DNA from: Ruegeria atlantica
Lineage (GTDB): Bacteria; Pseudomonadota; Alphaproteobacteria; Rhodobacterales; Rhodobacteraceae
Assembly: GCF_013032455.1 (NCBI RefSeq)
Contig: NZ_WQCF01000002.1
Span: 124,001 to 188,000, forward strand
Direction of reading: 5' to 3'
DNA: 64,000 nucleotides
Shown: positions 7,251 through 23,174 of the stretch, piece by piece
Layout of the letters: every line of letters starts with the position of its first letter
Numbering within the stretch: the stretch's first letter is position 1
Notes under the pieces: generated by a model
What the model was told of the DNA's origin: nothing
The model's database searches: none
Seen by the model: the letters and a program-made list of their open reading frames with translations, nothing else
Made by a program: the position numbers and the translations under genes

Positions 7251-7452
7251 TGCGAACTTTTACAAAAGTTTCATACTTCGATTTTTCGGCTGGATTCTTG
7301 GGCAGGGGGGCTGACGCATAGTAATGTGTCTCGCAGATCAGTACCTTCGTCAAAAACAAGCTTGGAGCCCTACAAAGTCAAACTGGCGGCATCAATCCGA
7401 CGTTATACTTCAACAAAGTGCAAACTTCACCTTGCGAACTTATCGAAAGTTT
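7251..7452. repeat. Two related short inverted repeats upstream of the arsenic operon
   Basis: At 7251-7271 and 7433-7452 there are two copies of a ~20-bp element that begins TGCGAACTT and ends AAAGTTT, each internally near-palindromic (AACTT...AAGTT). They flank about 160 bp without genes. They could be regulator sites or hairpins; the second overlaps the downstream flank of the host tRNA-Thr. No function can be assigned. Confidence 0.35.
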
Positions 7453-7492
7453 TGGTTCCATTTCTAAATTTTATGGGTGTCAAAAGTAAGAG

Positions 7493-7537
7493 TGGTGCCG
7501 CATGAGGGACTTGAACCCCCGACCCATCGCTTACGAA
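7493..7537 (-). pseudogene. 3' part of split host tRNA-Thr(CGU)
   Basis: On the minus strand this reads anticodon loop, anticodon 3' stem GCGAT, variable region, T arm GGGGG-TTCAAGT-CCCTC, acceptor ATGCGGC, A and CCA. There is no 5' half next to it: the sequence beyond 7537 does not contain a D arm or GCCGCAT acceptor strand. The missing 5' part is found 16.4 kb away at 23959-23997. 7493-7537 (45 nt) plus 23967-23997 (31 nt) gives a 76-nt tRNA with perfect acceptor GCCGCAT/ATGCGGC and anticodon stem ATCGC/GCGAT. Confidence 0.9.
7530..7537. repeat. Left attachment core (att)
   Basis: CTTACGAA, identical to 23959-23966. It corresponds to the anticodon loop TTCGTAA plus one stem base of the split tRNA-Thr. 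Identity stops abruptly outside these eight bases on both sides, which marks the strand-exchange region. Confidence 0.85.
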
Positions 7538-7670
7538 TTTTAACGTCGAGTTATTGCACGGTGGTAGACAGCGCCACAGGAAGTCTCATAAGGCTCTACA
7601 ATTGCTTGACTAATTTAGGATTCGCCCTTGGACATCATCGCACAGCGTTTCAGAGCTTTTGACGACCACG

Positions 7671-7725
7671 CCCTACTAATGCCCTACTAACCCAATTTGT
7701 AGGACCCTACTAATTGACCCTACCC
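7671..7725. repeat. Cluster of CCCTACTA boxes, putative integrase arm sites (left)
   Basis: Exact CCCTACTA occurs at 7671-7678, 7682-7689 and 7705-7712, with a weaker CCCTACCC at 7718-7725. The same octamer occurs twice near the right end (23880-23887, 23891-23898). Short direct repeats close to the attachment core on both sides are what tyrosine integrases use as arm-type binding sites. Function inferred from distribution. Confidence 0.65.
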
Positions 7726-7971
7726 ATTCGACGAGTCTGTAGGCACCTCAACAACGAACGCTCTCGCATATCTCACTTCACAAATCACCGCGTGGGACAC
7801 TCAGCATCGGTTTGCCAACATCATACATTGATGTGTTAGGGTCGTTTTTGCTGATCAATTGGGAGCAATCGATAAAGCAATCTAAACAACAAAGCGGCTA
7901 TGTGATTGGTGGACAGAAACCGCCCAGTCCTCGAAGGGTTGCACTGGGCGGTAAGGAGCAGCGATAGATCA

Positions 7972-8454
7972 CTAGAGATAGCCGCGAAGCTCAAGCCTCT
8001 GCTGGAGCGGTAACATCGCCACAACCGCCTTTAGGAGTTCCAGTAGCCGACGGTCTTCGTCCATTTCTTGATCAAAAAACTGGGGCTTCAACACCATTAT
8101 TCGAACTTTCTTCCTAGGCGAACGCCCCATGCCGCCAAGCCAGTCCGTTAGTTCTTCATGATAATGCTGATAGTCCGTGGTCCCCGGCTGGAGTTCATCA
8201 AAAAAATCCTTAAGGATCCACTCAGTATTGCGACCATCTAAGTCTTTGTAATTATCAAGATAAATCTTAGAATCTAGTTTCTTGTAACCGACGAACTTTG
8301 AAAAGCCGAAGCGAGGATGGTCTTTGTCACGCGTATCGACATACCAAGCGTGAACAAGGCCAAGCCTCTCAACCAACTCTGGGGATTGAGCCAACTCGGT
8401 TTGCAACCGGTCAATATTGTCCAGCGCTTGTTGAGCATCAGAAATCAAATTCAT
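7972..8454 (-). CDS. Hypothetical protein, 160 residues
   Basis: Unrecognised. Starts MNLISDAQQALDNIDRLQTEL, a predicted amphipathic helix, followed by an alpha/beta-looking segment (VHAWYVDTRDKDHPRFGFSKFVGY, KIYLDNYKDLDGRNTEW) and a charged helical C terminus (MDEDRRLLELLKAVVAM). No signal peptide or membrane segment. It is the first gene inside the left end of the element and stands alone on the minus strand. Its place next to a DUF3800 gene and a restriction-like locus suggests, but does not show, a defence or accessory role. Confidence 0.6.
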   Translation of the reverse strand: MNLISDAQQALDNIDRLQTELAQSPELVERLGLVHAWYVDTRDKDHPRFGFSKFVGYKKLDSKIYLDNYKDLDGRNTEWILKDFFDELQPGTTDYQHYHEELTDWLGGMGRSPRKKVRIMVLKPQFFDQEMDEDRRLLELLKAVVAMLPLQQRLELRGYL

Positions 8455-8703
8455 AATCAGCCTCCTTCACCTACTTCGTGGTAGGTGGCATGTGTCGGCC
8501 ATCCAGTCAAGTACCACGTGGTAGATGAAGTACGAAATTTGATCGACATAAGCGAACTCGCAAAGAGACCCATCAGGAAGATGTGGTGCACTCAAATCGC
8601 CGATATAGATGGCTGCTGAGGCCCACAACGCGGCTAACATAGCGAGGAAAGCAGACAGTCACTTAATGTCCATTTTGTTGAGCGGATTGGAATATCCGAC
8701 AGG

Positions 8704-9510
8704 TCATCGGGGTCTGGCTATTCGCTGTGCTTTTGACCGAGGTTGTGCCGATACAGGGTCGACATATTGATACAGTTCGTCGTGCCAATCCTTAACTTCG
8801 GTCTCTCCGAGTTGAGAAGCATCAAGTTCGAAACCAAGCAAGTATCGATTTCCATTGTGTGAAATCCCGACAGCAGATGCCGGTCCGGCACTTCCTAGCC
8901 GGACTATTTGGGGTGAACCGCCGGTAAACTTATCTGCGCCGGAGGCCAAATGGTCAATAAATGCCCAATAAACAGCTCGGCTCATGTATCCTTGCTGTTT
9001 GGCATGCACAGCAGCGTACATCTTCATGAAGTCATTCTCGTCAGTACCAAAAGCTCGGATGAGCATTGACTGCGCACCGCCCGTTTGAATCGCTGTAGTC
9101 TTTCCCGCCCCCTTTCCAGGCGCGAAGAAAATGGAAAAGATTTGAAGTGGTAGAGAATTCTGTCGGTCGTCGCGCGTCGCGTAAACTATCTCGACGGATC
9201 GAGTTTTAGGAAAGCTCCCAATGGTAGCATCAAGGTATGACTTGTATTTTGACACACGCAGAGCCGGATCTGGTGAGCGCGCACCTAACGATTTGGTGTC
9301 TATTGCATCTATTAGCTGCGCAAGCGCCGTTTGCGGCGGCAGCGCCTCTCCGACAAATCCGAACACATCCGGAAAAACTTTAGAGAAGAACAACTTCTTT
9401 CCGCAGTCCCAGACATTTCCCGCATCATCCCCGAACCGACTGTCAGAACAAAGATTTAGAGTCTGTCGCTTATTTTGATCGACAGATTTCCAGCAAACCA
9501 TCGTAGTCAT
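8704..9510 (-). CDS. Hypothetical protein with possible HslV/proteasome-like Ntn-hydrolase start
   Basis: 268 residues from ATG at 9510. The N terminus MTTMVCWKS..., with LCSDSRFGDDAG, KKLFFSKVFPDVFGFVGEA downstream, resembles the layout of proteasome beta/HslV-type proteins: Thr2 after Met removal, an A/C-x-D-S-R strand, and a GF-x-G segment. Beyond about residue 110 the similarity is not clear, and a GKGAGKTT stretch near residues 132-139 is P-loop-like but lacks a context I trust. Divergent from the DUF3800 gene with a 133-bp shared upstream region. The fold is a guess from motif order; function unknown. Confidence 0.55.
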   Translation of the reverse strand: MTTMVCWKSVDQNKRQTLNLCSDSRFGDDAGNVWDCGKKLFFSKVFPDVFGFVGEALPPQTALAQLIDAIDTKSLGARSPDPALRVSKYKSYLDATIGSFPKTRSVEIVYATRDDRQNSLPLQIFSIFFAPGKGAGKTTAIQTGGAQSMLIRAFGTDENDFMKMYAAVHAKQQGYMSRAVYWAFIDHLASGADKFTGGSPQIVRLGSAGPASAVGISHNGNRYLLGFELDASQLGETEVKDWHDELYQYVDPVSAQPRSKAQRIARPR

Positions 9511-9643
9511 TTCAAAAATTCCATCCAGTTAGTTCCTTGTTACTAGCCCAGAGCTACCTCTTTCGGTAGTGTGAGTTCCAATTCTTGCCCGCGGCCGCTA
9601 CTGAGTTTCTGGCAGAGCCCGTGCCATTAATGAGGTACTGCAC

Positions 9644-10774
9644 ATGCCGGTTGATGAAGAATCCGGGACGTTGATTTCGTTTGACGAGTCTGGCTTCACA
9701 GGCCCCGATCTACTTAACGAAGATCAGCCTTACTTTGTCTACGCTTCACACGATCTCTCGCCACCGGAAGCAAGTGAGTTCTTAGAGTCGTTAAAAACAG
9801 ATTTCCGCCTTCAGGGCGGTGAACTAAAAGCCACTCGCCTCAAGAGACGCCGCGACTGGGACGAGCTATCAGATCGGATTTGCGAGATTACAGATCGAAG
9901 ATCGAGAGTAATTTTTTTCGAAAAGCGCGCGGCGTTGGCTGGAAAGTTCTTTGAGTACTTCTTCGAACCTGTATTGTCCGAGAACAACCTTGCTTTCTAT
10001 CGTATCGATTTTCACCGCTACATGATGAATGCAATCCTCTTCCTGATGCGAGACAGTGGCACAGACTATTCTGGGCTAAGCACCCAAATGCAGGCATTTA
10101 TGCGCTCATTTAGGCCGGCTGACGCACCAGATTTGTTCGGCGCAAACGGCCAACATCATATCGTGATGGAAAGGATTCAGAGTTTTTGCGTGGGATATGC
10201 GGATCGAATTGCTGCTGAAACGGAACATCTACGCCCGGGGAATGATGAAACGGGGAAATGGGCGCTGGACCTAACTTCGACGTCTCTATTCAGTTTGCTG
10301 TTTCAGTGGTGGGGGCATCGCCATCCAAGACTTCAGGTCCTGTGCGACGACTCAAAACCGCTTACTCAGATGGCGGACCATTTCAATGCTTGGGTCGGTC
10401 AAGATCAATCGGTTCCGGTAACTAATGGTCGAACGTCTATCGAACTCCGGGGGAACCTCGTTGCTCCAATCGAGTTTGGATCTTCAGAAGAACATCCGAC
10501 TATCCAGTTGGCAGACCTACTAGCTGGCATGACTGTAGATTTCTGCAATCGAAAGGGAGGTGCACCAAGTGGCATCCAGAAATGGGTTCTGAGAAACTGC
10601 ATGTGGTCTCATTCGGTCGAGTTCGATCCCGAATTGGTACGAAAGGGAAATCCCACCGTTAGAGTGGGTAGGGAGCTATTAAAGGAGTTGGCTCTTAAAG
10701 CCGAAAGAGGAGATGATCCGCTGGATCAGATCGGATCGTTCATCGAGAGAACCCGCGCAAGGTTCGAAGCTTAG
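9644..10774 (+). CDS. DUF3800 family protein (RNase H-like fold predicted)
   Basis: 376 residues from ATG 9644. Diagnostic DUF3800 features: an N-terminal acidic strand ISFDESGF (Asp14, Glu15), a central LQVLCDDSKP with acidic residues, and the C-terminal QLADLLAGMTVDFC. These three acidic positions resemble a metal-binding set of RNase H-like nucleases, and DUF3800 proteins recur in defence islands and mobile elements. No partner gene overlaps it; the methyltransferase starts 274 bp downstream. Assignment to the family is good; enzymatic activity is not established here. Confidence 0.8.
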   Translation: MPVDEESGTLISFDESGFTGPDLLNEDQPYFVYASHDLSPPEASEFLESLKTDFRLQGGELKATRLKRRRDWDELSDRICEITDRRSRVIFFEKRAALAGKFFEYFFEPVLSENNLAFYRIDFHRYMMNAILFLMRDSGTDYSGLSTQMQAFMRSFRPADAPDLFGANGQHHIVMERIQSFCVGYADRIAAETEHLRPGNDETGKWALDLTSTSLFSLLFQWWGHRHPRLQVLCDDSKPLTQMADHFNAWVGQDQSVPVTNGRTSIELRGNLVAPIEFGSSEEHPTIQLADLLAGMTVDFCNRKGGAPSGIQKWVLRNCMWSHSVEFDPELVRKGNPTVRVGRELLKELALKAERGDDPLDQIGSFIERTRARFEA

Positions 10775-11048
10775 TTGTGCACGCCCAAATGGGGCAGCGC
10801 ATTGAACCTAAGTCCACTTGGTGGAAGCGCGAACGGTTTTATTTGACAGTTTTGCATCAAACGTCTGGCTCGAAATCGAAGAAAATCGGCTGTGTTGACC
10901 GCAAACAGCAAACCGGAGCATTTCTGTGATGGCGGTATCCCGCCCCCAATCTATTGACCGGTTCTCAAAAATTTACATGCCCCGCGTTTCTGACCTGGCA
11001 GAACAGCTCATTACATGATCTACTGCGCAAAAAGACTGCACCCGATAC

Positions 11049-12710
11049 ATGCACATACCATTTATTGACATCTTTGCTGGCCCTGGCGGCTTAGGAGAAG
11101 GGTTTTCGCGATTTGGATCCTTCCGTGGCAGGGACGTTCACTTTCAATCGCGTTTATCAATCGAGAAAGACGCAGTCGCCTCGAAAACGTTATCTCTTCG
11201 TGCATTTGTGCATCAATTTGAGGGCTCTGATCTCCCCGAAGAATACTACAGGGTCATTCGTGGTCAGGCCGAATTGTATGAGCTGCGTAAGTATGACCAG
11301 TGGGAAGCGGCGCAAGGCCGCGTATGGAATGCAGAACTCGGCAGGGTAGCGGAAGCTTCTCTTCATCTGCGTATCAGAGAGGCTCTGAGTGGCGCCAAGC
11401 AATGGGTATTGCTTGGCGGTCCTCCTTGCCAAGCCTATTCCCTTGTAGGTCGGTCCCGTATGACTGGATTGGGTGCAGTCCTTTCTCACGACGACCTAGA
11501 CGAAGATAGTATCAAGCGGATCGAAACTGATCGTCTGAATAAGTTCTATAACGATCACAGGCATAGGCTGTATCGAGAATACCTCAGAATAGTTGCAGTC
11601 CACCAGCCATCTGTTTTCGTGATGGAGAATGTGAAGGGGTTGTTATCTTCTCGGATACCAGACCCAGAGCGCGCTGACGAATTCATTCCCGTGTTCAAAC
11701 AGATGAGAGAAGACCTTTCGAACCCGTGGACTGCGCTCGAAAACGACGAGCTTTTTGACGAGTTGGATGGGTTTCGTCAGGGAAAGAGGTACCGATACAA
11801 GCTTTTTTCCTTTGTTCTTCCTCGTGAAGACGACGTTGAACTTCGTGATAGAGATTTTCTAATACGGTGCGAAAACTTTGGTATCCCGCAAGCCCGCCAC
11901 CGTGTGATTATCCTAGGCCTCAGAGAGGACATTGAGGGCACACCTGCGAGTCTAACCCCACTCAACTCTGTTGACCTTCGGAGTGTTTTGGGCGGATTGC
12001 CTCGTTTGCGAAGTGGTGTCTCTCGAGTTTCTGACAACGCTCAAAATTGGCTGGGTGCATTAAGATTTGAGCTGGATCAATGCGACAGGGACACACTAAA
12101 CGCGCTGGGCATCCTCGAGAAGTATGAAAGCATCTCGCAGCGAACCAAAACGGACTTAGAACGTGGTGATGCCTTTTTGCCCCATGTGACGAAAGCAAAA
12201 GCCAGTTCAGAGCTAACGCGATGGCTGGCAGACGAACGACTGGAGGGCATTATTCAGCATGAAACTCGAACTCACATGGCCTCCGATCTGAGACGCTATC
12301 TTTTTGCGGCGTTGGCAACTGAGAAACTCGGTAGTACACCGAAACTGCAACATTGGCCCGAAGGATTTCTCCCTTCCCACCGCAATATAAGGGACGCCAA
12401 AACAAACAAAGTCAAAGTAAGGGGGTTCGGTGATCGGTTTCGCGTGCAAGCGATGCAGCTACCATCAACGACGATAACGTCCCATATTTCCAAGGACGGG
12501 CACTACTATATCCATCCTGACCCTGAGCAATGTCGAAGCCTTACTGTTCGGGAAGCAGCGCGCCTTCAAACGTTTCCAGATAACTACTATTTTGTTGGCA
12601 ACCGCACACAACAGTATCAGCAAGTCGGCAATGCAGTGCCACCATTTCTAGCCCTGCAACTTGCCAGCATAGTTTCTGAGCTATTTGATCCAGAGAATGC
12701 AGATGGTTGA
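11049..12710 (+). CDS. dcm: DNA cytosine-5 methyltransferase (Dcm-like)
   Basis: 553 residues, longer than the typical ~400 because of inserts around residues 80-130 and in the middle. All main C5-methyltransferase motifs are visible: motif I FIDIFAGPGGLGEGFS, motif IV GGPPCQAYS with nucleophile Cys127, motif VI FVMENVKG, motif VIII QARHRVIILG, motif IX REAARLQTFPD and motif X QQVGNAVPP. The enzyme would methylate cytosine in a specific sequence, shielding host DNA. The target site cannot be predicted. Its 3' end overlaps the vsr-like gene, and it heads the restriction-like cluster. Confidence 0.95.
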   Translation: MHIPFIDIFAGPGGLGEGFSRFGSFRGRDVHFQSRLSIEKDAVASKTLSLRAFVHQFEGSDLPEEYYRVIRGQAELYELRKYDQWEAAQGRVWNAELGRVAEASLHLRIREALSGAKQWVLLGGPPCQAYSLVGRSRMTGLGAVLSHDDLDEDSIKRIETDRLNKFYNDHRHRLYREYLRIVAVHQPSVFVMENVKGLLSSRIPDPERADEFIPVFKQMREDLSNPWTALENDELFDELDGFRQGKRYRYKLFSFVLPREDDVELRDRDFLIRCENFGIPQARHRVIILGLREDIEGTPASLTPLNSVDLRSVLGGLPRLRSGVSRVSDNAQNWLGALRFELDQCDRDTLNALGILEKYESISQRTKTDLERGDAFLPHVTKAKASSELTRWLADERLEGIIQHETRTHMASDLRRYLFAALATEKLGSTPKLQHWPEGFLPSHRNIRDAKTNKVKVRGFGDRFRVQAMQLPSTTITSHISKDGHYYIHPDPEQCRSLTVREAARLQTFPDNYYFVGNRTQQYQQVGNAVPPFLALQLASIVSELFDPENADG

Positions 12711-13122
12711 TGTGCATTCACGTAAGCAGCGTGCGTTCAATATGTCCCGAATAAGGGGGCAAGACACCAAACCGGAAACGGCTCTACGCTCTCGGTTGCA
12801 CAAAGAGGGGTTTCGCTTCCGCAAGAATGTGAAGGGCTTACCGGGAACGCCCGACATCGTTCTACCCAAATACAAGACTGTCATATTTGTGCATGGGTGT
12901 TTCTGGCATCGGCATCGAGATTGCCGCTTCGCTACGACACCAAAAACTAATACAGAGTTTTGGGAACTGAAGTTTCGCGACACTATCGCGCGGGACAAAA
13001 AACAGGTTCAACTCCTAGAGAGCCTGGGTTGGAAAACCATAACGATATGGGAATGCAGTATTAATGATGATCTTGACCGAACGATCGATCGGATAAAAAT
13101 TCAACTAAAATGTGATCACTAA
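12703..13122 (+). CDS. vsr: Very short patch repair (Vsr) endonuclease
   Basis: 139 residues from ATG 12703 (ATG 12697 and TTG 12685 are in-frame alternatives), starting inside the end of dcm. Classic Vsr blocks: FNMSRIRGQDTKPE, GTPDIVLPKYKTVIFVHGCFWHRH and KKQVQLLESLGWKTITIWEC. Vsr nicks DNA at T:G mismatches produced by deamination of 5-methylcytosine, and its gene usually accompanies a C5-methyltransferase as here. In systems with MutL-like GHKL ATPases, Vsr-fold proteins have also been proposed to act as the restriction nuclease, so its role here could be repair or cleavage. Confidence 0.93.
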   Translation: MVDVHSRKQRAFNMSRIRGQDTKPETALRSRLHKEGFRFRKNVKGLPGTPDIVLPKYKTVIFVHGCFWHRHRDCRFATTPKTNTEFWELKFRDTIARDKKQVQLLESLGWKTITIWECSINDDLDRTIDRIKIQLKCDH

Positions 13123-13241
13123 TTTGCCGCCGACCCCGAAAAACACTTCGACCACTACCTACTATTCAAGAACAAGTGTCAATTTTTCTTATGCACTATA
13201 CTTCGAATTGGTTTTGACGAAACGGCAAGGGATGAAGGTCT

Positions 13242-15482
13242 TTGGGCAAAAATTTGGAAGTTGCGGAGGCAAACTTGGAAGAAACTGAAAAGAACGTTCT
13301 ACGCTTTCACCCCAAGGCAAGGATTATCCGGACAATTGGTGATCAACTCATCAGCGGACCGGAAGCTGCGGTCATTGAGTTGGTGAAAAACGCATATGAT
13401 GCGGATGCCACCTATGTTGCGATCAAGTTTGCTCCACCGCTGGAGAAGGGTGATGGTAGGATCTCGATTTCAGATGATGGTCACGGTATGGCGCTTTCTG
13501 ACATTCAGACAAAGTGGATGGAACCGGCAACATCGTCCAAACTTAAGTCTAGGCATTCACCTAAGAAGAAAAGAATAATGATGGGGTCGAAGGGTATCGG
13601 CAGATTTGCCGCGGCGAAGCTTGGCCAAACGATGTCGCTTGTTTCAACTACGTCATTGAACGATCAAGGCGTTTCGATACTGATTCCTGAGCTAGATTGG
13701 AACATATTTAATGACGATGTATACCTGTCTGATATTGAGATCGACTATCTAGAGCAATCGACCGATGGTCCTACTGGAACAACCATAGAAATTAACCGGT
13801 TGCACGAGGATTGGACCAAAGAAAGGCTAGCCAAACTCCACCAAGAACTACGGCGTTTATTGTCTCCCTTTTTGGTCCGAAGTGAAGACCAAGAAGACTT
13901 TAAAGTATACATGGACTTGTCCGAGTGTACGCCTAAAACATGTGGCTTCGACGGTAACGAAATCCTTGGCGATGCCGAACCCGGAAGCGAGGGTGTTGTA
14001 TATACTGGGCCCGGAAAGAGAATTCACCCCTTTGCGCTACTGACGGCTTGCGACTATCAGCTGACCGGCACACTGGAAGCCGACGGGTCATTCAAAGGTG
14101 AGTTTATTAATCATCGTGCTGGACAGGGGGCACAAGAAATTGTGCTGCCTGGAACCGGAATTGCGCAGAAAAGTTCTCCAGGACAGGTAGGGGTTCAGCT
14201 TTATGTGTTTGATCGTGAGTCAGACGCCGTAAAAAGTAACATGAGAAACGCAGGCCTTGGGGACATGTCAGCCAACGAAGCCAAACAGGTTCTGAACCGC
14301 ATTTCCGGGGTCAGCATCTATAGACAAGGTTTCAGAATCAGACCTTACGGTGACGAAGCGAACGACTGGCTCGCACTGGATACGCGGCGCGTTCAAAACC
14401 CATCTCTGCGAATTGGGCACAACCAAATTGCAGGCTATCTCAAGGTTGGCAGCGAAGAAGAATCTAATCTCTTTGAGCGCAGTAGCCGCGAAGGGTTTGA
14501 AGACAACGAAGCCTTCATGAATTTGACAAATTCCGTCAAGAGACTTCTTGCAGCGGAGTTGGAGCCGCGCCGCTTCGACTTTCGAGATAAAGCGGGGATT
14601 GCTCGATCGCGCAACGGCACATTTGATGAGCTGAAAGAGCTTTCCGAACTTAAACGCGTGCGAAAATTTTTAAAGTTACTTGACCCCAACGAACAAGAAA
14701 AAGCCGAGCGTATCATAGATGCTGAAAGTGAGAGACTTTCCGCGCGCATCGAAGGAATGCGTGAGCGGCAGCGAGTGCTTGAAGCAAAATCCTCGTTAGG
14801 GGCTATTCTTGCTGAGGTATTGCATGAAGGGCGCCCCGAAGCAGCTTACGTTCAAAACACTTCGGAGAAACTACAACTGCGATTGAAAGCGCTGTTGTCT
14901 GCTTCTGGTACCGCCAAAGATGATGCCCATAGGTTTTATCAGAAAAAAATTCCAAACTTGAAGGCTTCTGGTGACAAGCTCGCTATGCTTTTTAACCGAT
15001 TGAGCCCTCTAGCTGGGGGACGGCGGCAACAACCTTCGCATTTCTATCCGATGGAAGTCATTCGTGATGCAGTTGAGCTTTTTGATGGACATCACATTGA
15101 AACATCGTTTGAAACTGAAGCTCCTGGTCTAAAATTGTTCGGCCATCCAGAAGACTTGACAACCGCAATTGTGAATCTCACTGGAAATTCTATTCACTGG
15201 CTGGAAGACAAGAAGATCGCGGATCCCAAAATTAGCGTGATTGTGACGCGTACAGAAGAGGGTGGGCATATATTTTTCGAAGACAATGGCCACGGTGTCC
15301 CGCAGGAATTTGCAGAGCGAATATTTGAGGTTCGTTTCACATTAAAAGACGGTGGCACCGGACTTGGTTTGAACATAGCACGCGAGGCTTTGGCACGATC
15401 AGGTGCAAGCCTAAAATTCCATTCGGAACATCGTTCCGGCACGCTCTTTGAGATTGTCTTTCCAGCGGAGATCGAAAATTGA
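13242..15482 (+). CDS. Protein with two GHKL ATPase modules: MORC/MutL-like N terminus, histidine-kinase-like C terminus
   Basis: 746 residues from a TTG at 13242 preceded by a purine-rich AAGG. The N-terminal GHKL module shows ELVKNAYDADA (N box), DDGHGM (G1) and GSKGIGRFAAAKLG (G2), of the Hsp90/MutL/MORC class. A middle helical region contains LHEGRPEAAY with His528 where a histidine-kinase dimerisation helix would carry its phospho-acceptor. The C terminus is a second GHKL module of histidine-kinase type: NLTGNSIHW with Asn645/Asn649, EDNGHGV with Asp681, and GGTGLGLNIA. The next gene encodes a receiver domain and overlaps by four bases, supporting phosphotransfer between them. Confidence 0.88.
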   Translation: MGKNLEVAEANLEETEKNVLRFHPKARIIRTIGDQLISGPEAAVIELVKNAYDADATYVAIKFAPPLEKGDGRISISDDGHGMALSDIQTKWMEPATSSKLKSRHSPKKKRIMMGSKGIGRFAAAKLGQTMSLVSTTSLNDQGVSILIPELDWNIFNDDVYLSDIEIDYLEQSTDGPTGTTIEINRLHEDWTKERLAKLHQELRRLLSPFLVRSEDQEDFKVYMDLSECTPKTCGFDGNEILGDAEPGSEGVVYTGPGKRIHPFALLTACDYQLTGTLEADGSFKGEFINHRAGQGAQEIVLPGTGIAQKSSPGQVGVQLYVFDRESDAVKSNMRNAGLGDMSANEAKQVLNRISGVSIYRQGFRIRPYGDEANDWLALDTRRVQNPSLRIGHNQIAGYLKVGSEEESNLFERSSREGFEDNEAFMNLTNSVKRLLAAELEPRRFDFRDKAGIARSRNGTFDELKELSELKRVRKFLKLLDPNEQEKAERIIDAESERLSARIEGMRERQRVLEAKSSLGAILAEVLHEGRPEAAYVQNTSEKLQLRLKALLSASGTAKDDAHRFYQKKIPNLKASGDKLAMLFNRLSPLAGGRRQQPSHFYPMEVIRDAVELFDGHHIETSFETEAPGLKLFGHPEDLTTAIVNLTGNSIHWLEDKKIADPKISVIVTRTEEGGHIFFEDNGHGVPQEFAERIFEVRFTLKDGGTGLGLNIAREALARSGASLKFHSEHRSGTLFEIVFPAEIEN

Positions 15483-16573
15483 ATAAAAAGACATTGCTTG
15501 CAGTTGAAGACGAAGCACGCATGGTTGAATTACTTGAAGATGCGGTTGCTGATTGGAATGAAGCAAACCACGATCAGAACATAGTTCTCGAGCCTTTAAT
15601 CGCTAATGACCTAGCATCTGCTTACAACATTATTCGGCAGCGAAAGATAGACTGTGCACTTGTCGATCTTCGATTGCCAGAAGATCCAGATACACCCGGC
15701 ACCTCTGCCGACCGCGGAAACCAATTAACAAGTGATCTGCTGTTTAAATGCGGGATACCAGTAGCTATCGTTTCCGGTTATTCAGCGGAAGTGGAGCCAG
15801 AACTCCGTCAAACCGGTATCATTCGGACGTTCACAAAAGCACAACATGCCTACGACGAAGCCATTTCTTGGATAACAAACCATTGGGACCTCATGGATAC
15901 TCTGAAGGCTGTCCGTGAGAAGCTGGAACAATCTACAAGCGAAGTGTTTGCTAGGCGGATATGGCCGAACTGGGAGACAATGAAGGATGCGTTCCAAGGT
16001 GAAACAGACGCTTTGGTTACTGCGGTCTCTCGGCAATATGCCAGCCACACAGCGGAGTTCTTAGGCGCCGATGACGATTCAACTTGGCATCCTTATGAAA
16101 GCTATATTGTTCCCTCATATTTGTCGAAACGCGCCCACACAGGAGACATCTTTGACTTCGAGGACGGCCGATGGATTATTTTAACGCCACAATGCGATAT
16201 GGCTAACGGTAAGGCGACGAATGTCCTCTTGGCCTCATGCAAAGTCGGGGTTGACAATTGGGGTGAAAAAAAAGCCCGCGTGCGTGATGCCCAAAACCAT
16301 GCGCAAAAAGAAAAGCATTCAAAATATTTTCGTGATTTAGTGAATCAGAACATCCCTCAGTCACGCCACTTTCTTCCACCTATTCCTGGCGAAAACGAAG
16401 CTTGCTTAGTGGACTTTCAAAAGCTCAAAACAACCTCATACGAAGAACTCAGCAATCTGCTTGCTAATCGCAAGGCTTCGCTCGCCCCTGCCTTTCTAAG
16501 CAACTTGGTACAGAGATTTGGTGCATTTATGAGTAGAACAGGCCAACCAAATATAGACGTTGATCACTTTTGA
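15479..16573 (+). CDS. Receiver-domain protein with unrecognised C-terminal domain
   Basis: 364 residues from a TTG at 15479 that overlaps the kinase stop (TTGA). Residues 4-130 form a response-regulator receiver: LLAVEDEARM (acidic pair), CALVDLRLP with Asp63 as phospho-acceptor, VAIVSGYS and FTKAQ with the conserved Lys. There is no DNA-binding domain of a known class. The C-terminal 200 residues contain WIILTPQCDMANGKATNVLLASC and FLPPIPG...CLVDFQKLKT, an unfamiliar domain with a conserved-looking Cys. The protein is the likely phosphorylation target of the dual-GHKL kinase; output may be a nuclease switch and not transcription. Confidence 0.82.
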   Translation: MNKKTLLAVEDEARMVELLEDAVADWNEANHDQNIVLEPLIANDLASAYNIIRQRKIDCALVDLRLPEDPDTPGTSADRGNQLTSDLLFKCGIPVAIVSGYSAEVEPELRQTGIIRTFTKAQHAYDEAISWITNHWDLMDTLKAVREKLEQSTSEVFARRIWPNWETMKDAFQGETDALVTAVSRQYASHTAEFLGADDDSTWHPYESYIVPSYLSKRAHTGDIFDFEDGRWIILTPQCDMANGKATNVLLASCKVGVDNWGEKKARVRDAQNHAQKEKHSKYFRDLVNQNIPQSRHFLPPIPGENEACLVDFQKLKTTSYEELSNLLANRKASLAPAFLSNLVQRFGAFMSRTGQPNIDVDHF

Positions 16574-16723
16574 ACGTTACCGGTGTGTCGGAGTGTTTTT
16601 CGAACAAGTTTTTGGAGAGGGATTACCCATTTGATCGCAAGAGTAAAATAGGCCGCAAACATTCGGCGACACCGCTAGATTTAGAAGTTTTATACATGCA
16701 GATCCAGCTGAAACTACAAAGCA

Positions 16724-18439
16724 ATGAACTCAAGCAACGTAGCTGAAACATTAGAAAGGCTTGCCCTTCAAGAGTATTCTTCAGTAGAGCATGAGCTTTC
16801 CCGTACTTCCAACATTTCCGCCACCTCTATCCTGATTGGGGCATGCCAAGCACTCGACTACTGGTTGTTGGTCGACAACTTTCTTGAGGACGCCAAGTCT
16901 TCGCTTTCTGTGCCTGATATGAGCCTTGTATCCCGAGGTTGGAATCCGCTGCTAAAACTCTTGCAAGGACGAGTGGGCAAGCAAACTGGTGTCCCAGTAT
17001 CATCAGTGGGCTCGAAACAATTCCAGGCCAGCACAACGCTTCTCCACCAACTTGGGCGCAGCGTAATCCTAAAGAAAACAGCTGAGCTCGTTAGGCACGG
17101 CAACTTTTCTGCTGAGCATTCTGGCCAAGAGATACGCGTTAGAATGTTGCTCTCCACAGAAAACGATCTGTTTTCAGATAGGATTGATGACTTTAAATGG
17201 CGCGATCTAGAACAACGAAAGAAGAAGCTAGAGATTGAGAGAAAGCTCCTCACTGTATGGCAACAAGAGGACATTCAGGAGGAGATGTCACAAGTAGTTC
17301 ATCCATTTAAAATGCCTCATGGTACTATCGTAGGGTACGCCACGACACCAGAGATCGATGAGCATTTCGCAAGTTTGGTATTACCCCAAGTTTCAGAATG
17401 GCAACGTCAAAGTGGCCTCTTTCCCCAGGCTCGTATCCGAGGGCTAAAGGGGGCAGATATCGCCTCTATTCTTGGTCTATGCATGAGCTCTCGTCTGAGC
17501 CACAGTCAACTTGTAGCGGTTGGGAAAAAGAAATTTGATGAAGTCAACTACTGGCTAGCTAATACTGTATGGAAGCCAAAGTCAGAGATTGTATCTTCAT
17601 TGGCCAACTTCGCAAATCTTGATCCATTTATTGTTTCAACAATTGTTGATCGGTCGACATATGGTGTTGCTCCAAACGTCGATCTGTCATCCGATGTAAC
17701 ACCAGTCTGTCCCCCGTTCATTAAGATCTCCAAAGAATACCTTTTGGAACCCATGTCATTTTTATTTTCTAATCCACTTGATACCTTCAAGAAGTTGAAC
17801 AACGACGCTCCTACAAAGAATTCAGTTCGCATTCATCGAGAAGCCCAGATGGCTGAAGAAATTCACAACCTGTTTGAAGGGAACAGATATCGTCGGTTAC
17901 AAAGTCGTGCCCGCTTGAAACGAAACGGAAAGACTATAACGGATATTGATGCAGCTGTTTTAGATGTTATGACGGGTGAAATTGGCCTCTTTCAACTAAA
18001 GTGGCAAGAATTTAACGGAGCCAATAATAGGCAGCAAATTAGTAGGTCCCGAAACTTCGTGGATCAGGTTGATACTTGGTCAAGTAAGGTTCAGGAATGG
18101 ATAGTATTAGAGGGAACCGAGCGTCTACTGAAGAGTCTACAGTTTCCGGTTGTTAATACGACCCCCAACAATGTCTACTTGTTTGCCATCGGTCAACAGG
18201 CGGCGCGCTTTTCGTCATTTGGCTTCCCTCAAAGAAATTCAAATACTGCACCGGCCACAATGAATCAATTTGTCCGATTGCGCTTGGAAATGGGGCACGT
18301 ACAGAACACAGTAGCAGAATTATTCAAGCGCATCCGAAGTGAAACCCGTTCATCACCTATCCTGACACCTATCCCCTACAATATGACTTCTGGTGAGTAC
18401 TCCATTCATTTTGAAGACATGTGGAACTCCTTCGAATAG
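16724..18439 (+). CDS. Putative PD-(D/E)XK-type nuclease, 571 residues
   Basis: Not a family I can name. Near residues 405-427 it contains TDIDAAVLD followed by GEIGLFQLKWQ, that is Asp407/Asp409 and Gln424-x-Lys426 on adjacent strands. This matches the PD-(D/E)XK restriction-nuclease core, where the last acidic residue is often Gln. A basic helix (RLQSRARLKRNGK) precedes it. The N-terminal 350 residues are mostly helical without membrane segments. It is the last gene of the restriction-like cluster, 150 bp after the receiver gene, and could be the effector that cleaves unmodified DNA. Function inferred from motif and neighbours. Confidence 0.7.
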   Translation: MNSSNVAETLERLALQEYSSVEHELSRTSNISATSILIGACQALDYWLLVDNFLEDAKSSLSVPDMSLVSRGWNPLLKLLQGRVGKQTGVPVSSVGSKQFQASTTLLHQLGRSVILKKTAELVRHGNFSAEHSGQEIRVRMLLSTENDLFSDRIDDFKWRDLEQRKKKLEIERKLLTVWQQEDIQEEMSQVVHPFKMPHGTIVGYATTPEIDEHFASLVLPQVSEWQRQSGLFPQARIRGLKGADIASILGLCMSSRLSHSQLVAVGKKKFDEVNYWLANTVWKPKSEIVSSLANFANLDPFIVSTIVDRSTYGVAPNVDLSSDVTPVCPPFIKISKEYLLEPMSFLFSNPLDTFKKLNNDAPTKNSVRIHREAQMAEEIHNLFEGNRYRRLQSRARLKRNGKTITDIDAAVLDVMTGEIGLFQLKWQEFNGANNRQQISRSRNFVDQVDTWSSKVQEWIVLEGTERLLKSLQFPVVNTTPNNVYLFAIGQQAARFSSFGFPQRNSNTAPATMNQFVRLRLEMGHVQNTVAELFKRIRSETRSSPILTPIPYNMTSGEYSIHFEDMWNSFE

Positions 18440-18600
18440 TGTCAATCTGATTTGACGTCATAGATAAAATTTGACCCGCTTTCGTAGCAGTCGCTTTCAT
18501 TGTTACTGAGCGCACTGCACCAGATTTCATAACTCGATGAAAAGTCGAGCTTTTTATCTGAGTATGCTTATAATGACATGTGGCCATAAGGAGGGTCACA

Positions 18601-19767
18601 ATGCCAAATCTACGTCTTACACGTCGTGCCGTTGATGATATCCCATTTCCGCACAGCGGTCAGGTTTTCTACCGCGACACTATGCTTTCAGGTTTTGGCC
18701 TACGGGTCGGCGCCAATTCCAAGGTGTTCTTTGCCGAGGGGCAGGTGAACCGACGCACACGCCGCGTCACAATAGGCCGGGCGGATGTATTCGCACCCGA
18801 GATCGCCCGCAAGAAGGCGTTGGTCATTCTCGGTGAAATGGCCGAAGGGCGTGATCCTAACGCCGAAAAACGTAAGGAAAAACAGGAGCGGGTCACCTTG
18901 GAATTGGCCAAGGATCGGTTCTTCGAGACGCGCAACACTTTGTCACCCAGTACAGTGGAACACTACAGGCGGACCGTACAACTGTATCTCAAAGCGTGGC
19001 GCAAACTGGAGATGAAGGAAATTACCCGTCAGATGGTGCTTAAGAAGCATCAGGATATCGGCAAGAAACATGGGAAAACCACCGCCAACAACGTGATGCG
19101 GCACTTTCGCTCTCTCTACAATTTCACGTCTGCAACTCAGGATGATTATCCGCCTAATCCGGTGCAAATCCTGACCCAAGCGCGGGCATGGTTTAAGGAT
19201 CAGCGCCGTCAGACTGTCGTGACTTCGGCTGATTTGCCTGCTTGGTGGAAAGCCGTGATGGCGGAGCCGGACTACTCCCGGGACTTCCTGCTTACAACCC
19301 TGTTCACAGGAATGCGCCGCAGCGAGGTGTTGAAACTGCGCTGGGACAACGTGGACCTGTCTGCAAAGACGCTTCACCTGCCGACGACCAAGAACGGCGA
19401 CCCCTTGACCCTGCCTTTGTCAGAGTTTCTGGTGGACCTATTGGCCCAACGGCGTGAATTGAACAAAGGCTCCCCTTGGGTATTCCCCGGACCGGGTAAG
19501 ACCGGTCATCTTGTCGAAACGAAGAAGTTCCTCCAGCGAGTCACCGCAGGGTCTGGTGTCAGTTTCACCCTGCACGACCTGCGACGCACCTTCATCACCA
19601 TCGCTGAGAGCCTTGACGTGCCCTACTATGCGCTCAAGCGCTTGCTTAATCACCGGACCAATGGCGATGTGACCGGAGGCTATATCGTGGTGAACGTTGA
19701 GCGTCTGCGGGAACCGGTCGAACTGGTGGCGCAGCGCATCTTGGAGCTGAAAGAGCCGCGCGACTGA
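18601..19767 (+). CDS. int: Tyrosine recombinase/integrase of the element
   Basis: 388 residues from ATG 18601, preceded at six bases by a strong AAGGAGG. The N-terminal domain (LPHSGQ..YRDTMLSGFGLRV..) is of the DUF4102/arm-binding type found in P4-like integrases, followed by a SAM-like core-binding domain. Catalytic residues: Arg in TGMRRSEVLKLRW, His-x-x-Arg in HDLRRTF, His in LLNHRT, and a Tyr nucleophile in GGYIVV. It should join the 8-bp core in the tRNA anticodon loop and bind the CCCTACTA boxes. Unusually it lies 4.2 kb from the nearer end and not beside the att site. Confidence 0.95.
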   Translation: MPNLRLTRRAVDDIPFPHSGQVFYRDTMLSGFGLRVGANSKVFFAEGQVNRRTRRVTIGRADVFAPEIARKKALVILGEMAEGRDPNAEKRKEKQERVTLELAKDRFFETRNTLSPSTVEHYRRTVQLYLKAWRKLEMKEITRQMVLKKHQDIGKKHGKTTANNVMRHFRSLYNFTSATQDDYPPNPVQILTQARAWFKDQRRQTVVTSADLPAWWKAVMAEPDYSRDFLLTTLFTGMRRSEVLKLRWDNVDLSAKTLHLPTTKNGDPLTLPLSEFLVDLLAQRRELNKGSPWVFPGPGKTGHLVETKKFLQRVTAGSGVSFTLHDLRRTFITIAESLDVPYYALKRLLNHRTNGDVTGGYIVVNVERLREPVELVAQRILELKEPRD

Positions 19768-19809
19768 TCGTGCGGTGACCCCGCCCCATCGACGGCTGTC
19801 AGGATACCC

Positions 19810-19830
19810 AGCGGGACGGCGTGTCCCGCT
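19810..19830 (+). terminator. Hairpin after int, possible terminator without a T tract
   Basis: AGCGGGAC at 19810-19817 pairs perfectly with GTCCCGCT at 19823-19830 around a 5-base loop, 43 bp after the integrase stop. No run of T follows, so it may act as a processing or Rho-assisted site. Confidence 0.35.
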
Positions 19831-19956
19831 CCGACGGAATCCGTGAGCGTCCTTGACCACACAATTTGCGAAAAGCATGTGTTTTACGGGTGATCATTCG
19901 GTTGCACCCTCGCGCGTGCGCGCGCGATGTATCAAGCCGATGCACAACCATTCTAA

Positions 19957-20568
19957 ATGATGGGGAGACTTGGGATGTCCGACGAAGATTTCAACCAGAC
20001 CGAAGAAGACTATGAAAGTTATTCAGTCGGCACATTATTTGGCCGCTCGTTTCTGGAAAAGCTGCTCTTGGCAATCATTAAAGCCCATCCAATTGGAGAA
20101 GATACACCAGAATCCCGTCTCAGAAATGCAATGCGCGCCCTTACGGGAGAGAATTCAAAGGCAAGAGTTGTTGCTCAGGACGGAGATTTGCCTGCGCTGT
20201 TGTTTATGGGTCATGAACATCATGTCGACAAAGGAAATAAATTCCTTTGGGTCATGAAGCACCGCAGAGAGAAGAACCCGCCCAAGCCACCCAAAATTCG
20301 CAAAGATTTGGCTCTCGCTAAGGAGGCAACCGACAAATTCTTCAATCCACCTAACGAACAGGCGAGGAAAGCGATCTACGACCGTCTTCGTGAGAAGTTC
20401 AGCGGCAGCTATTATCGGAAGCGGGGTAAAGGTGAAGGGATCAATTTCCGCGAGTATTTTGTTTATCAGGCCGTTGAGCACGACTACGTCGCGGAAACAT
20501 TGGAAGCACAAAGTCTTGATTTAATTTGCAAAGAACTGCGGGAAAATGGGGTAAAAACGAGTCGCTAG
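19957..20568 (+). CDS. Hypothetical protein, about 200 residues
   Basis: Start could be ATG 19957 or ATG 19975. Acidic N terminus (SDEDFNQTEEDYESY), then a helical, lysine/arginine-rich centre (KHRREKNPPKPPKIRKDL) and C-terminal helices. Soluble, no recognisable domain. It lies between integrase and the AlpA-like gene, a position often taken by element-specific regulators or replication accessories. GC-rich alternating CG sequence (19911-19927) precedes it. Real coding status is supported by length and codon composition; no function proposed. Confidence 0.65.
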   Translation: MMGRLGMSDEDFNQTEEDYESYSVGTLFGRSFLEKLLLAIIKAHPIGEDTPESRLRNAMRALTGENSKARVVAQDGDLPALLFMGHEHHVDKGNKFLWVMKHRREKNPPKPPKIRKDLALAKEATDKFFNPPNEQARKAIYDRLREKFSGSYYRKRGKGEGINFREYFVYQAVEHDYVAETLEAQSLDLICKELRENGVKTSR

Positions 20569-20671
20569 TCAAAACACTCGTGTTGCGAATTAAATGGGAA
20601 TTGTTTCGCAACACCGATCGTCAGGTGGTTGGCAATGTCCTCGTCATCATACGATGACAAAGGAGGACAAA

Positions 20672-20893
20672 ATGTCCAAACAATCTGAACTTCTGACAAC
20701 CAAGCAGTTGCCGGAAATCACCGGCCTCAGCGCGAGCTACTTCGAGAAAGGCCGCGGTCTCGGCTACGGCCCCCGTTTCATTCGGGTCAATTCCGGGGGC
20801 CGCTCGGGTAAAATTCTCTACCGCCGGGTAGACGTTGAAAACTGGCTGTCTGATCTGACCTGTGAGCCGCAGGGAGGCGCGGATGTCCAGTAA
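20672..20893 (+). CDS. AlpA/excisionase-like helix-turn-helix protein
   Basis: 73 residues from ATG 20672, five bases after a strong AAAGGAGG. The sequence LLTTKQLPEITGLSASYFEKGR, then YGPRFIRV and ILYRRVDVENWL is the MerR-like/AlpA winged-helix pattern (HTH_17 type) of small excisionase or satellite activator proteins. In P4-like elements such a protein regulates integrase direction and the replication operon. The primase gene begins inside its last codons, so the two are co-translated. Confidence 0.88.
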   Translation: MSKQSELLTTKQLPEITGLSASYFEKGRGLGYGPRFIRVNSGGRSGKILYRRVDVENWLSDLTCEPQGGADVQ

Positions 20894-23174
20894 CCTTCGC
20901 CCCGATCCCAACAAGGCCATCGCATTCTTGCGGTGGCTGACCATTGGAGCAAAGCTCTATCTGGAAAACATGAACAGCCAAGGGGCATCCCGCCCCAAGG
21001 GTAAGACTTATCTGCAAGGAGACGATACAGCCGCAATCCAGTTCGTGGCGAGCAATAACAACGATCAATGGCAGCGCAATCTGTACTTCGTCGCGGACGC
21101 CGAGTTTCTTGCCGGACCTCGTAAGAAGGAAAACCTGACCGCAGTTCGCTTTTTGCATGTCGACCTGGATCACAAGGACTATCCAGGAGGAGAGAAGGAA
21201 CAAGACGAACGGATTTTGAACCTCCTGTTCGAAGTAGAACATCGTCCGAAGGGCATTCCGCATCCCACTGCCATTTGGTTTACGGGAGGTGGATACCAAG
21301 CCGTGTGGCGTTTGGCTGAACCGATTTCGATTGCGGAGGCCGAAGAACTGAACCGCGCCCTTTTGTTCGCGCTGCAGGGCGGGGCAGGTACTCACGACGC
21401 GGGGCGCTTGCTGCGTCTGCCTTGGACTATGAACTGGCTGAACGACAAGAAACGCGCGTCCGGACGCGCTCCGAAGGTGGCTGTTCATTTGCACCCGGCG
21501 CATTTTGACGAACCGCCCGTTTCTTATTCGGTGAATGATTTCGATCTGCCTCGTGCCGAACGCGAACCGAAGCTTCCGTTGGTTCCCGCAGCCAATTCGG
21601 GCGCTCAGCTTGAAATCCGTGCCGAGCCTCTGCCGGATGACTTGAGCGAGATTGTTCCCCCAGACGAGAAATGGGCGAAAGTGATCATGACTGGGAAGAA
21701 CCCTCCGAATAAGCCTTATGGATCTCGCTCCGAGTTGGTATTCGCGGCGACACTTTGGATGCTCGGCAAGGGAATGAAACCGGGCCACGTGGTCTCCATC
21801 ATTACCGACCCCGATTTCGGCATCAGTGCCCACGTTCTCGACAACCCGAATCCGCTGAAATACGGGATACGTCAGGTTCAGCGCGCGCTGACTGTTCTGG
21901 AAACCAAGATTGGTGGCTGGCCTGCCGTCAATAAGGACGGTTTCCCTTATGCTCACAATCCGAAGAATATTCGTTACGCTTTCGCGCAATTGGGGATTCA
22001 TGCACAACGGAACTTGTTTACCCAAACGGATGAAGTTTCTGGTTTTCAACTCGGCGGGCGCGATCTCAATGATATCGGTGAGATTTTGTGCAGCGCATTT
22101 AGCCGTGATCTCAACTTCGTCGCCAGCCCTGCAGCTATCAAGCGCGAACTGATTTCTGTCGCCCACGAAAACCGGTTCCATCCTGTAATTGAATATCTTG
22201 ATGATCTGGTATGGGATGGCGTACCGCGCATTGACCGTTGGTTGGCCACCTATTGTGGGGCGAACGATAACGAACTGAACGCCGAGTTTGGCAGCAAGTT
22301 CCTGATCGCAGGCGTCCGTCGGATCAAACAGCCGGGTGTTAAGTTCGATACGATGCTCGTGCTTGAAGGTGCGCAAGGTGCGGGTAAGTCCCAGTTGGCA
22401 GTGAAGTTAGCCATCCGGGATGAATGGTTCTGTGGCAGTCTGGATCTCAAGAGCGATGACAAAACAAAGGCCGAGTTGTTGTCTCGCGCCTGGATTGTGG
22501 AATGTCAGGAACTGGACGGTCTGAACAAGACCACCAGCCAGAGCCTTAAGAAGTTTCTCAGCACCGCGATCGATCTATTCCGCGCAGCCTATGCGCGCAA
22601 CGCCACGGAGTTTCGCCGCCATTGCATAATCCTGGGTACCACAAACGATTTCAGATACCTGCGCGACCTGACAGGTAATCGTCGGATTTGGCCTGTCGCA
22701 GCTGGCGAGATCGACATGAAAGGCTTTTTTGCGGACGTAGACCAACTTTGGGCAGAGGCGGTTGTTAGGGAACGCCAAGGTGGTTCTATCGTTCTATCCA
22801 AACACCTGTGGGAAGAGGCTAGGCGTGTCCAAGGCTTCCGCATGGTGGAAGATGAATTTGCCGAGGTTTTGATCGACAACTTTGACGGCCGTACTGGCAA
22901 GGTTTCGATGGACAGCATCAAGCTTTTGCTGAATCTCGACACTTCTCGGATGTCGCCTGACAATGCCCGCCGGATTAACGCGGCTATGGAACGTCTCGGT
23001 TGGGAATTTGGCACCCATCGCCTGCACGATCTCGCTGGCAAGAACCATCGGCCCAGAAAGGGGTTCGCACGTGGCACACCAGATGAGCGTTCCCAAGAGA
23101 TATACGTGACCCAGAATCAGGGCGGAGCGGTTGTGGTTGAATATCGGAAGGGGCCACCGGATATACCTTTTTGA
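20883..23174 (+). CDS. Primase fused to VapE-type (SF3-like) helicase
   Basis: 763 residues from ATG 20883 with GGAGG just upstream; overlaps the AlpA-like gene by 11 bp. The N-terminal ~250 residues look like an archaeo-eukaryotic/RepB-like primase: VRFLHVDLDHKDYP supplies acidic metal ligands, then WFTGGGYQAVWRL and GRLLRLPWTMNW. The C-terminal ~350 residues are a virulence-associated-E helicase/ATPase: LEGAQGAGKSQLAVKL (Walker A), WIVECQELDG (Walker B region), IILGTTNDFRYLRDLTGNRRIWPV (sensor/arginine region). It would initiate replication of the excised element. Confidence 0.92.
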   Translation: MSSNLRPDPNKAIAFLRWLTIGAKLYLENMNSQGASRPKGKTYLQGDDTAAIQFVASNNNDQWQRNLYFVADAEFLAGPRKKENLTAVRFLHVDLDHKDYPGGEKEQDERILNLLFEVEHRPKGIPHPTAIWFTGGGYQAVWRLAEPISIAEAEELNRALLFALQGGAGTHDAGRLLRLPWTMNWLNDKKRASGRAPKVAVHLHPAHFDEPPVSYSVNDFDLPRAEREPKLPLVPAANSGAQLEIRAEPLPDDLSEIVPPDEKWAKVIMTGKNPPNKPYGSRSELVFAATLWMLGKGMKPGHVVSIITDPDFGISAHVLDNPNPLKYGIRQVQRALTVLETKIGGWPAVNKDGFPYAHNPKNIRYAFAQLGIHAQRNLFTQTDEVSGFQLGGRDLNDIGEILCSAFSRDLNFVASPAAIKRELISVAHENRFHPVIEYLDDLVWDGVPRIDRWLATYCGANDNELNAEFGSKFLIAGVRRIKQPGVKFDTMLVLEGAQGAGKSQLAVKLAIRDEWFCGSLDLKSDDKTKAELLSRAWIVECQELDGLNKTTSQSLKKFLSTAIDLFRAAYARNATEFRRHCIILGTTNDFRYLRDLTGNRRIWPVAAGEIDMKGFFADVDQLWAEAVVRERQGGSIVLSKHLWEEARRVQGFRMVEDEFAEVLIDNFDGRTGKVSMDSIKLLLNLDTSRMSPDNARRINAAMERLGWEFGTHRLHDLAGKNHRPRKGFARGTPDERSQEIYVTQNQGGAVVVEYRKGPPDIPF

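Follow-up and report, generated by a model that had tools for sequence, protein, structure and literature searches.

What does a kinase-receiver signalling pair do inside a restriction-modification (R-M) locus? The question is raised by five co-directional open reading frames (ORFs; 11049-18439, + strand) in a 64,000-nt stretch of Ruegeria atlantica DNA (NZ_WQCF01000002.1, positions 124,001-188,000, forward strand), hereafter the window. They encode a C5-cytosine DNA methyltransferase (Dcm), a Vsr T/G mismatch endonuclease, a histidine kinase with two GHKL ATPase modules, a receiver protein and a 571-amino-acid (aa) PD-(D/E)XK-like protein. A sequence-only reading had presented the five as one set joined to a phosphorelay; its gene positions agree with the ORFs, Dcm, Vsr and both GHKL modules were confirmed by curated models, and the residues that it named (Cys127, His528, Asp63 and Lys426) all lie in the expected motifs. 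Here, the core of the system is identified as methylase, kinase and receiver, and the whole is read, with confidence a little short of even, as a C5-methylation R-M locus with a plug-in phosphorelay that would provide methylation-gated defence.

Related loci were collected by a receiver search of genome contigs, by whole-genome searches of the class, family and phylum, and from plasmids. Genome searches scored up to five candidates per genome for the receiver and three for the 571-aa protein, so that counts are lower bounds. Near-full receivers were found in at least 4 of 385 class genomes (G000, G001, G267 and, in two pieces, G279), at least 5 of 394 family genomes (G000, G585, G641, G694 and G730; G439 holds a fragment with stops) and at least 4 of 349 phylum genomes (G000, G267, G782 and G829), the window's own genome included each time. 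Twenty-one loci, window excluded, were counted. Left out were two 3-kb contigs with kinase and receiver only (L008 and L009), a fragment with stops (L036), a locus with receiver residues 305-364 only (L015), short sequences duplicating a counted locus or the window (L016-L019, L030, L031, L033-L035, L037, L052 and L053) and weak receiver-only matches (L020-L029, L032, L038 and most of the phylum-search matches). Contig ends truncate L002 and L004, and of the 41 Campylobacter plasmid records that matched the receiver, one was counted (L086) and another viewed (L107).

The kinase gene adjoins the receiver gene at all 21 loci, overlapping it by exactly 4 bp at nine, and at 20 of them a C5 methylase is encoded no more than 4.5 kb from the receiver, against approximately 0.5% expected per random gene (derived from 10 genomes that carry the receiver, with one to three methylase matches in each). 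Vsr is encoded within 5 kb at 15 loci. Nucleases vary by locus: EcoRII-type at eight (assigned with Pfam at L002, L010 and L014, as also at L015, and through resemblance to those enzymes at L003-L006 and L070), MvaI_BcnI at one and the 571-aa family at two, while some loci have none recognised. The claim that a histidine-kinase-type MORC/MutL-like protein and an adjacent receiver are linked to a methylase, often with Vsr, was thus borne out, with invariant phospho-acceptors; the proposed co-occurrence of all five genes held for kinase, methylase and, in most cases, Vsr, and failed for the 571-aa protein. In one relative (L040, 8768-9845), the receiver gene is interrupted (two ORFs) beside a kinase ORF and Vsr. 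On the conjugative Campylobacter plasmids L086 (C. armoricus) and L107, a C5 methylase gene is convergent with genes for a relative of the pair.

Protein distances and trees were compared in 19 rows, window included, omitting L002, whose kinase is truncated, L040, whose receiver is split in two, and L085, which lacks a methylase; where more than one C5 methylase matched (L001, L003 and L007), the nearest was used, the other L001 matches being fragments. Kinase and receiver distances were correlated at r 0.973, a value reached by 0 of 5,000 permutations, whereas receiver-methylase and kinase-methylase distances gave 0.494 (4 of 5,000) and 0.471 (2 of 5,000), respectively. Methylases are partly co-inherited with the pair, not tightly. 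The L001 receiver grouped with those of L003-L006 (support 97/95) and its methylase with those of the window, L011 and L012 (99/98); the L070 receiver grouped with L041, L042 and L071 (99/95) and its methylase with a set including EcoRII-type loci (100/98). These supported tree conflicts indicate at least two methylase exchanges. Long branches were seen for L039, L086 and L087 (receiver), L086 and L087 (kinase), and L039 and L007 (methylase). Among the compared loci, the methylases closest to the window's Dcm were those of L012, L011 and L001. The kinase-receiver pair travels as a unit, attached to different methylases.

At three loci, methylase, kinase and receiver genes together form an insertion. 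They lie between a release-factor-3 gene and azlC at L041; at L071 they are flanked by a gene of the amino-acid-kinase family and a Slam gene; at L074, which has the long form of the proteins, a comparable insertion has a 103-aa ORF of no assigned identity on its upstream side. Among adjacent ORFs of at least 90 aa, no recognised nuclease gene adjoins the unit at L041 or L071, and from sequence these two look like stand-alone units placed among housekeeping genes. A receiver that releases nuclease activity, as had been suggested, is consequently not supported as a general rule.

The kinase (13242-15482, + strand, 746 aa) is paraMORC/HEF_HK-like and consists of an N-terminal HATPase_c_3 module (residues 40-138; Pfam E 4.9e-23), a middle region with IYRQGFRIRPYGD, a His-box with His528 (within VLHEGR) and a C-terminal HATPase_c module (residues 635-743; E 5.4e-23). 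His528-Glu529-Gly530 is identical in 18 of 18 aligned related kinases, and in each GHKL module the residues of the ATP-site motifs are invariant too. Of the traits that define paraMORC proteins (an N-terminal GHKL ATPase plus an S5 domain, in an R-M neighbourhood), the ATPase and the neighbourhood were observed; the MORC/paraMORC R-M systems of Iyer, Abhiman and Aravind (2008; PMC2292703) share the N-terminal ATPase and neighbourhoods with Dcm and Vsr. Might the MORC-like ATPase itself be the DNA-handling restriction component, by looping or in a BbrUII/HgiDII-like manner, with the phosphorelay only tuning it? Its N-terminal region matches the BbrUII/HgiDII restriction enzyme model NF050001 (E 3.1e-25, 88.8 bits, far below the cut-off of 550) and PADLOC REase_II (1.7e-12), and looping is proposed for MORC/paraMORC R-M systems in PMC2292703. 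Nevertheless, no nuclease family was matched in the 746-aa protein by Pfam, NCBIfam or PADLOC scans, and loci with EcoRII and MvaI/BcnI already have a restriction endonuclease. We consider this explanation unlikely.

The receiver protein (15479-16573, + strand, 364 aa) combines a receiver domain with an uncharacterised C-terminal domain (residues from about 145 to 364). The receiver-domain residues are Asp11, Asp58, Asp63 (in ALVDLR), Ser99 and Lys120; among 35 related receivers, the three Asp residues are present in all, Lys120 in 34, and position 99 is Ser in 30 and otherwise Thr. The two-component residue set (phospho-His, receiver Asp, acidic residue, Thr/Ser and Lys) is thereby conserved across relatives, and the family profile found its best receiver match in the PDB at E 1.3e-4. 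Among the best 120 of 181 receiver homologues (window included), one had a precomputed Pfam domain, PF00072. Viral contigs searched with the receiver returned 19 pattern matches, none related, and phages gave no match to the receiver or to the C-terminal domain of the L041 receiver.

The C-terminal domain is likeliest the output of the pair, judging from its conservation. It carries the motifs TGDIF, PQCDMA, HFLPP and QRFGAxxSRxGQP, and Gly222, Pro237, Cys239, His297, Arg346, Arg353, Gly355, Gln356 and Pro357 are invariant in the 35 receivers. In a set of 18 C-terminal domains (14 short and 4 long), G222, C239 and G355 (window numbering) remain invariant and D240 and R353 are conserved at 90% or more; several residues invariant in the 35 vary in this set, Arg346 in L086 being one case. 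On this alignment, the domain is common to short and long forms. When whole receivers of the two forms were compared by profile, the match was weak (probability 87, E 3.7e-6), with 25 confident columns, or 125 without realignment. Pfam searches of the 18 domains gave no significant match (best for any family, E 0.031), nor did a PDB sequence search with the C-terminal domain (best E 0.24), and no PNP family was found in the window receiver or in the 18 domains.

An alternative that gives the pair no effector function would make it a controller of the R-M genes, sensing cell state and adjusting the expression or activity of methylase and nuclease. The tight linkage to methylases fits this, and the EcoRII-type restriction endonuclease present at 8 of the 21 loci could be the real effector; R-M control is also suggested in the published account of related pairs discussed below (PMC8011034). 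Helix-turn-helix domains are, however, not consistently found in the receiver C terminus (two such families, each in 1 of the 18 members, best E 0.12), the methylase alone adjoins the pair for control at L041 and L071, and close relatives of the pair occur beside unrelated methylases. We judge such a controller possible and rather unlikely.

Is the pair a known one? Bellieny-Rabelo et al. (2021; PMC8011034) describe a soluble kinase with HATPase_c_3, HEF_HK and HATPase_c domains and a Response_reg_2 receiver, 91.6% linked across 644 regions and found near C5 methylases, Vsr, EcoRII-C and MvaI_BcnI; control of R-M systems is offered there as speculation. The window and its relatives resemble this family in kinase layout (HATPase_c_3, a His-box in which His is followed by Glu, and HATPase_c), in the adjacent receiver gene, in the C5 methylase nearby, and in the presence of Vsr and EcoRII-C or MvaI_BcnI near relatives. 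In a profile alignment of short and long (HEF_HK-type) kinases (probability 100, E 3.9e-60, 683 columns), the window's HEG stands opposite HEF, and the receivers have C-terminal motifs in common. They differ in size, the window proteins having 746 and 364 aa versus 990-1078 and 542-721 aa in the long forms (sizes from nine fetched genomes with Response_reg_2 matches, ORFs as listed and some from upstream starts).

They differ also in matching neither Pfam model. The kinase had no match to PF19191 (HEF_HK) in a Pfam scan or in a search of its own genome at E <= 10, and this model also misses the kinases of L039, L040, L041 and L042; the receiver had no match to PF19192 (Response_reg_2), nor had those of L039, L041 and L042, and that model itself works (matches in 9 of 349 phylum genomes). 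Membership of the window proteins in PF19191 and PF19192 as modelled was rejected on this basis. By sequence, with clear homology for the kinase and weak homology for the receiver, the window pair is best seen as a shorter sister branch of the published family, outside its Pfam models.

A kinase-receiver pair in C5 R-M loci is, as a kind, already published (PMC8011034), and two-component phage defence already has a named system, Detocs, so the suggestion that the arrangement belongs to no named defence type overstated its novelty. The parts of PMC8011034 consulted do not describe the sister branch, the methylase exchange, the short nuclease-less units or the shared C-terminal domain. Experimental work on the pair was not found in the literature searched, some of which was covered at listing level only. 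Detocs (PMC11249213 and PMC9966839) is a three-gene family, and the effector best described for it is an ATP-cleaving PNP domain; it shares the two-component logic, whereas the window receiver has no PNP match and the Detocs definition has no methylase. The VcSduA/paraMORC3 Shedu system (PMC12137116) also has a GHKL ATPase, coupled there to anti-phage activity; unlike the kinase core and receiver of the window, in which DUF4263 was not matched, it is a single protein with a DUF4263 nuclease domain.

Dcm (11049-12710, + strand, 553 aa; PF00145 E 3e-39, TIGR00675 E 3.9e-34) has Cys127 in GGPPCQ (PPC), ENV and GNAVP motifs. Vsr (12703-13122, + strand; TIGR00632 E 5.5e-40, PF03852 E 2.1e-30) was listed from a TTG at 12685; its start is most likely the in-frame ATG at 12703, in which case dcm and vsr share 8 bp. 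In a PADLOC search (E 0.1), the methylase matched DrmMII, MTase_II and DruM2 (among the best 25 of 54 matches) and Vsr was matched too; the kinase matched as REase_II only, and the receiver and 571-aa protein had no match. Co-expression had been deduced from gene overlaps: those of dcm/vsr and of kinase/receiver (4 bp, TTGA at 15479-15482) stand, and the other junctions are gapped, by 119 bp (Vsr to kinase) and 150 bp (receiver to 571-aa gene), so that expression of the five genes as a single operon is unproven. Promoter and terminator scans were uninformative (13 and 11 found versus 9.5 and 9.5 in shuffles).

The presence of Vsr invites an explanation by repair, in which the MutL-like module would act with Vsr on 5-methylcytosine deamination damage and not in defence. 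It draws on the 15 of 21 loci with Vsr and on an interaction of E. coli Vsr with MutL, cited in PMC2292703. Against it, six loci keep the pair without Vsr within 5 kb, among them L085, which also lacks a methylase, and Vsr accompanies C5 R-M loci in which no kinase was found (L015). A repair accessory strikes us as very improbable.

The 571-aa PD-(D/E)XK-like protein (16724-18439, + strand) is a candidate nuclease proposed from conserved residues: Glu373, Asp407, Asp409, Gln424 and Lys426 (within FQLKWQ) are invariant in a 38-row family alignment. They fit a PD-(D/E)XK nuclease with QxK, an assignment made by motif and not by fold or family match. At E 0.1 the protein matched no family of Pfam, NCBIfam or PADLOC, and at E 0.01 none of PHROGs; a PDB sequence search gave no significant match (best E 0.14). 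Alongside the methylase required of a type II R-M system, it is a candidate for the cognate restriction endonuclease. Its family occurs in at least 2 of 385 class genomes (own genome included) and in four viral contigs, two of them alike; partial relatives were found in 1 of 50,697 phage records and 5 of 72,556 plasmids. One relative (G278) lies near McrBC- and ResIII-type genes. On the rhizobial plasmids L088 and L089, relatives directly follow Vsr and a 1,600-aa ATP-binding protein, with no pair in the stretch, an arrangement that may represent another R-M-like system.

The sequence-only reading had made this protein the dedicated effector released by the receiver. Its gene is next downstream of the receiver gene in the window, and four listed pairs of receiver and 571-aa homologues with equal-sized longest contigs (8,826, 21,135, 6,752 and 7,552 bases) suggest candidate linkage; a fifth case (2,188 bases) is too short for both genes. 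Set against this, the family accompanies the pair at only two of the 21 loci (L005 and, as a 128-aa piece where the contig begins, L004), both of which also encode an EcoRII enzyme, and neither kinase nor receiver was found in the stretches examined at seven other 571-aa loci (L081-L084, L088, L089 and L093, of which L082 and L083 appear to be one sequence). Such a dedicated role is improbable, and across relatives the protein is not a dedicated effector of the pair. The five genes as one fixed system were rejected on the 21-locus count and these contexts. The protein may be an optional nuclease, perhaps the cognate restriction enzyme at the window locus.

How, then, might a plug-in phosphorelay serve methylation-gated defence? 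Dcm would mark the host's own DNA, and Vsr would repair T:G mismatches arising from 5-methylcytosine deamination. In the 746-aa protein, an N-terminal GHKL and a middle domain appear to make up a MORC/MutL-like ATPase, to which a histidine-kinase core is fused; the protein would sense the state of DNA, and its most likely signal is DNA that is unmethylated or foreign, or a methylation barrier that has failed. Its C-terminal ATPase would drive autophosphorylation of His528, and the phosphoryl group would pass to receiver Asp63. The receiver C-terminal domain would then act as output, either through an enzymatic activity of its own or by activating a partner, and the 571-aa protein would be an optional addition. 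Gene order, homology, conserved catalytic residues, methylase linkage, methylase exchange and units without a recognised nuclease were computed; signal, phosphotransfer, nature of the output and defence are our interpretation of them.

We favour plug-in, methylation-gated defence because the residues of the pair and both ATP-site motifs are conserved, with kinase adjacency at every counted locus and methylase linkage at all except one; because kinase and receiver distances agree far more closely than those of receiver and methylase, with the conflicts at L001 and L070 and the insertions at L041, L071 and L074; and because nucleases differ among loci while the C-terminal domain is common to short and long forms. 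A stronger version, which we hold possible and somewhat less probable, is that C5 methylase, MORC-like histidine kinase and receiver form a self-sufficient three-gene defence: the methylase would write the self mark, the kinase sense unmarked DNA and the phosphorylated receiver act through a novel effector domain (Cys239-Asp240, Arg353-x-Gly355), with restriction enzymes optional and the cassette swapped between unrelated methylases.

Several points weigh on the other side. The window receiver matches PF00072 weakly (E 0.03, below the cut-off), and with no significant Pfam or PDB match for the output domain, an enzymatic role is argued from conservation only. The survey for nucleases beside the L041 and L071 units was limited in scope to their adjacent ORFs. 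An Enterobacter plasmid (L085) carries the pair without a C5 methylase, which was not found there or in the further plasmid stretches L108 and L109, six-frame search included. At L015, a 60-residue receiver remnant (10001-10186) lies beside an EcoRII enzyme, Vsr and a methylase, with no kinase found, so that such R-M loci persist without the pair; L015 may be an R-M locus that has lost it. The argument is made from sequence, and the same data are compatible with a purely regulatory role.

The five genes lie in a probable genomic island (7229-23786, no strand; GC 0.455-0.54 in 2-kb windows), with an integrase, a VapE-like protein and a tRNA-Thr gene (23787-23862) at its end. The tyrosine integrase (18580-19767, + strand; PF00589 E 8e-15, PF13356 E 5.2e-10) is encoded downstream of the five genes and followed by the VapE-like protein; a small ORF is AlpA-like in appearance, by eye. 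GC content (2-kb windows) is 0.455-0.502 across 10-18 kb and 0.54-0.60 in the right half, from 34 kb onward; at 24-33 kb, beyond the tRNA, it is also lower (0.50-0.53), so that GC alone cannot bound the island. Three same-genus genome stretches with the tRNA region were compared. The stretch from G1082 (L106) contains a counterpart of window 4157-7228 (77% identity) and, after approximately 230 bp, an 86-bp segment 98% identical to tRNA-Thr, the 16.5 kb between left flank and tRNA being absent; in the other two (L104 and L105), the match was limited to the tRNA region. Measured against the left flank that the two have in common, the tRNA-Thr of L106 points the other way, which leaves the insertion history unsettled.

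Two neighbours were noted. A DUF3800 protein (9644-10774, + strand; PF12686 E 3.4e-12, phrog_12991 E 2e-38) is encoded upstream of dcm; used as a query, it found no similar protein in the mapped loci and is probably a neighbour rather than a component of the locus. Outside the island, an unrelated signalling pair (28467-33330, - strand) comprises a GAF-PAS histidine kinase (1,085 aa, two receiver stretches) whose gene overlaps that of a receiver-adenylate/guanylate cyclase protein (539 aa).

The data reveal a sister branch missed by current Pfam models and a signalling pair exchanged between methylases, and they mark one uncharacterised domain, the receiver C terminus, as the place to seek the output. 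Should the proposed mechanism hold, epigenetic self-marking would be linked to an immune response through a phosphorelay, and the role of MORC-like ATPases in R-M loci would become testable in a three-gene unit. A pair attached to varied DNA-marking enzymes suggests that cells may defend themselves against foreign DNA in a way that has received little study.

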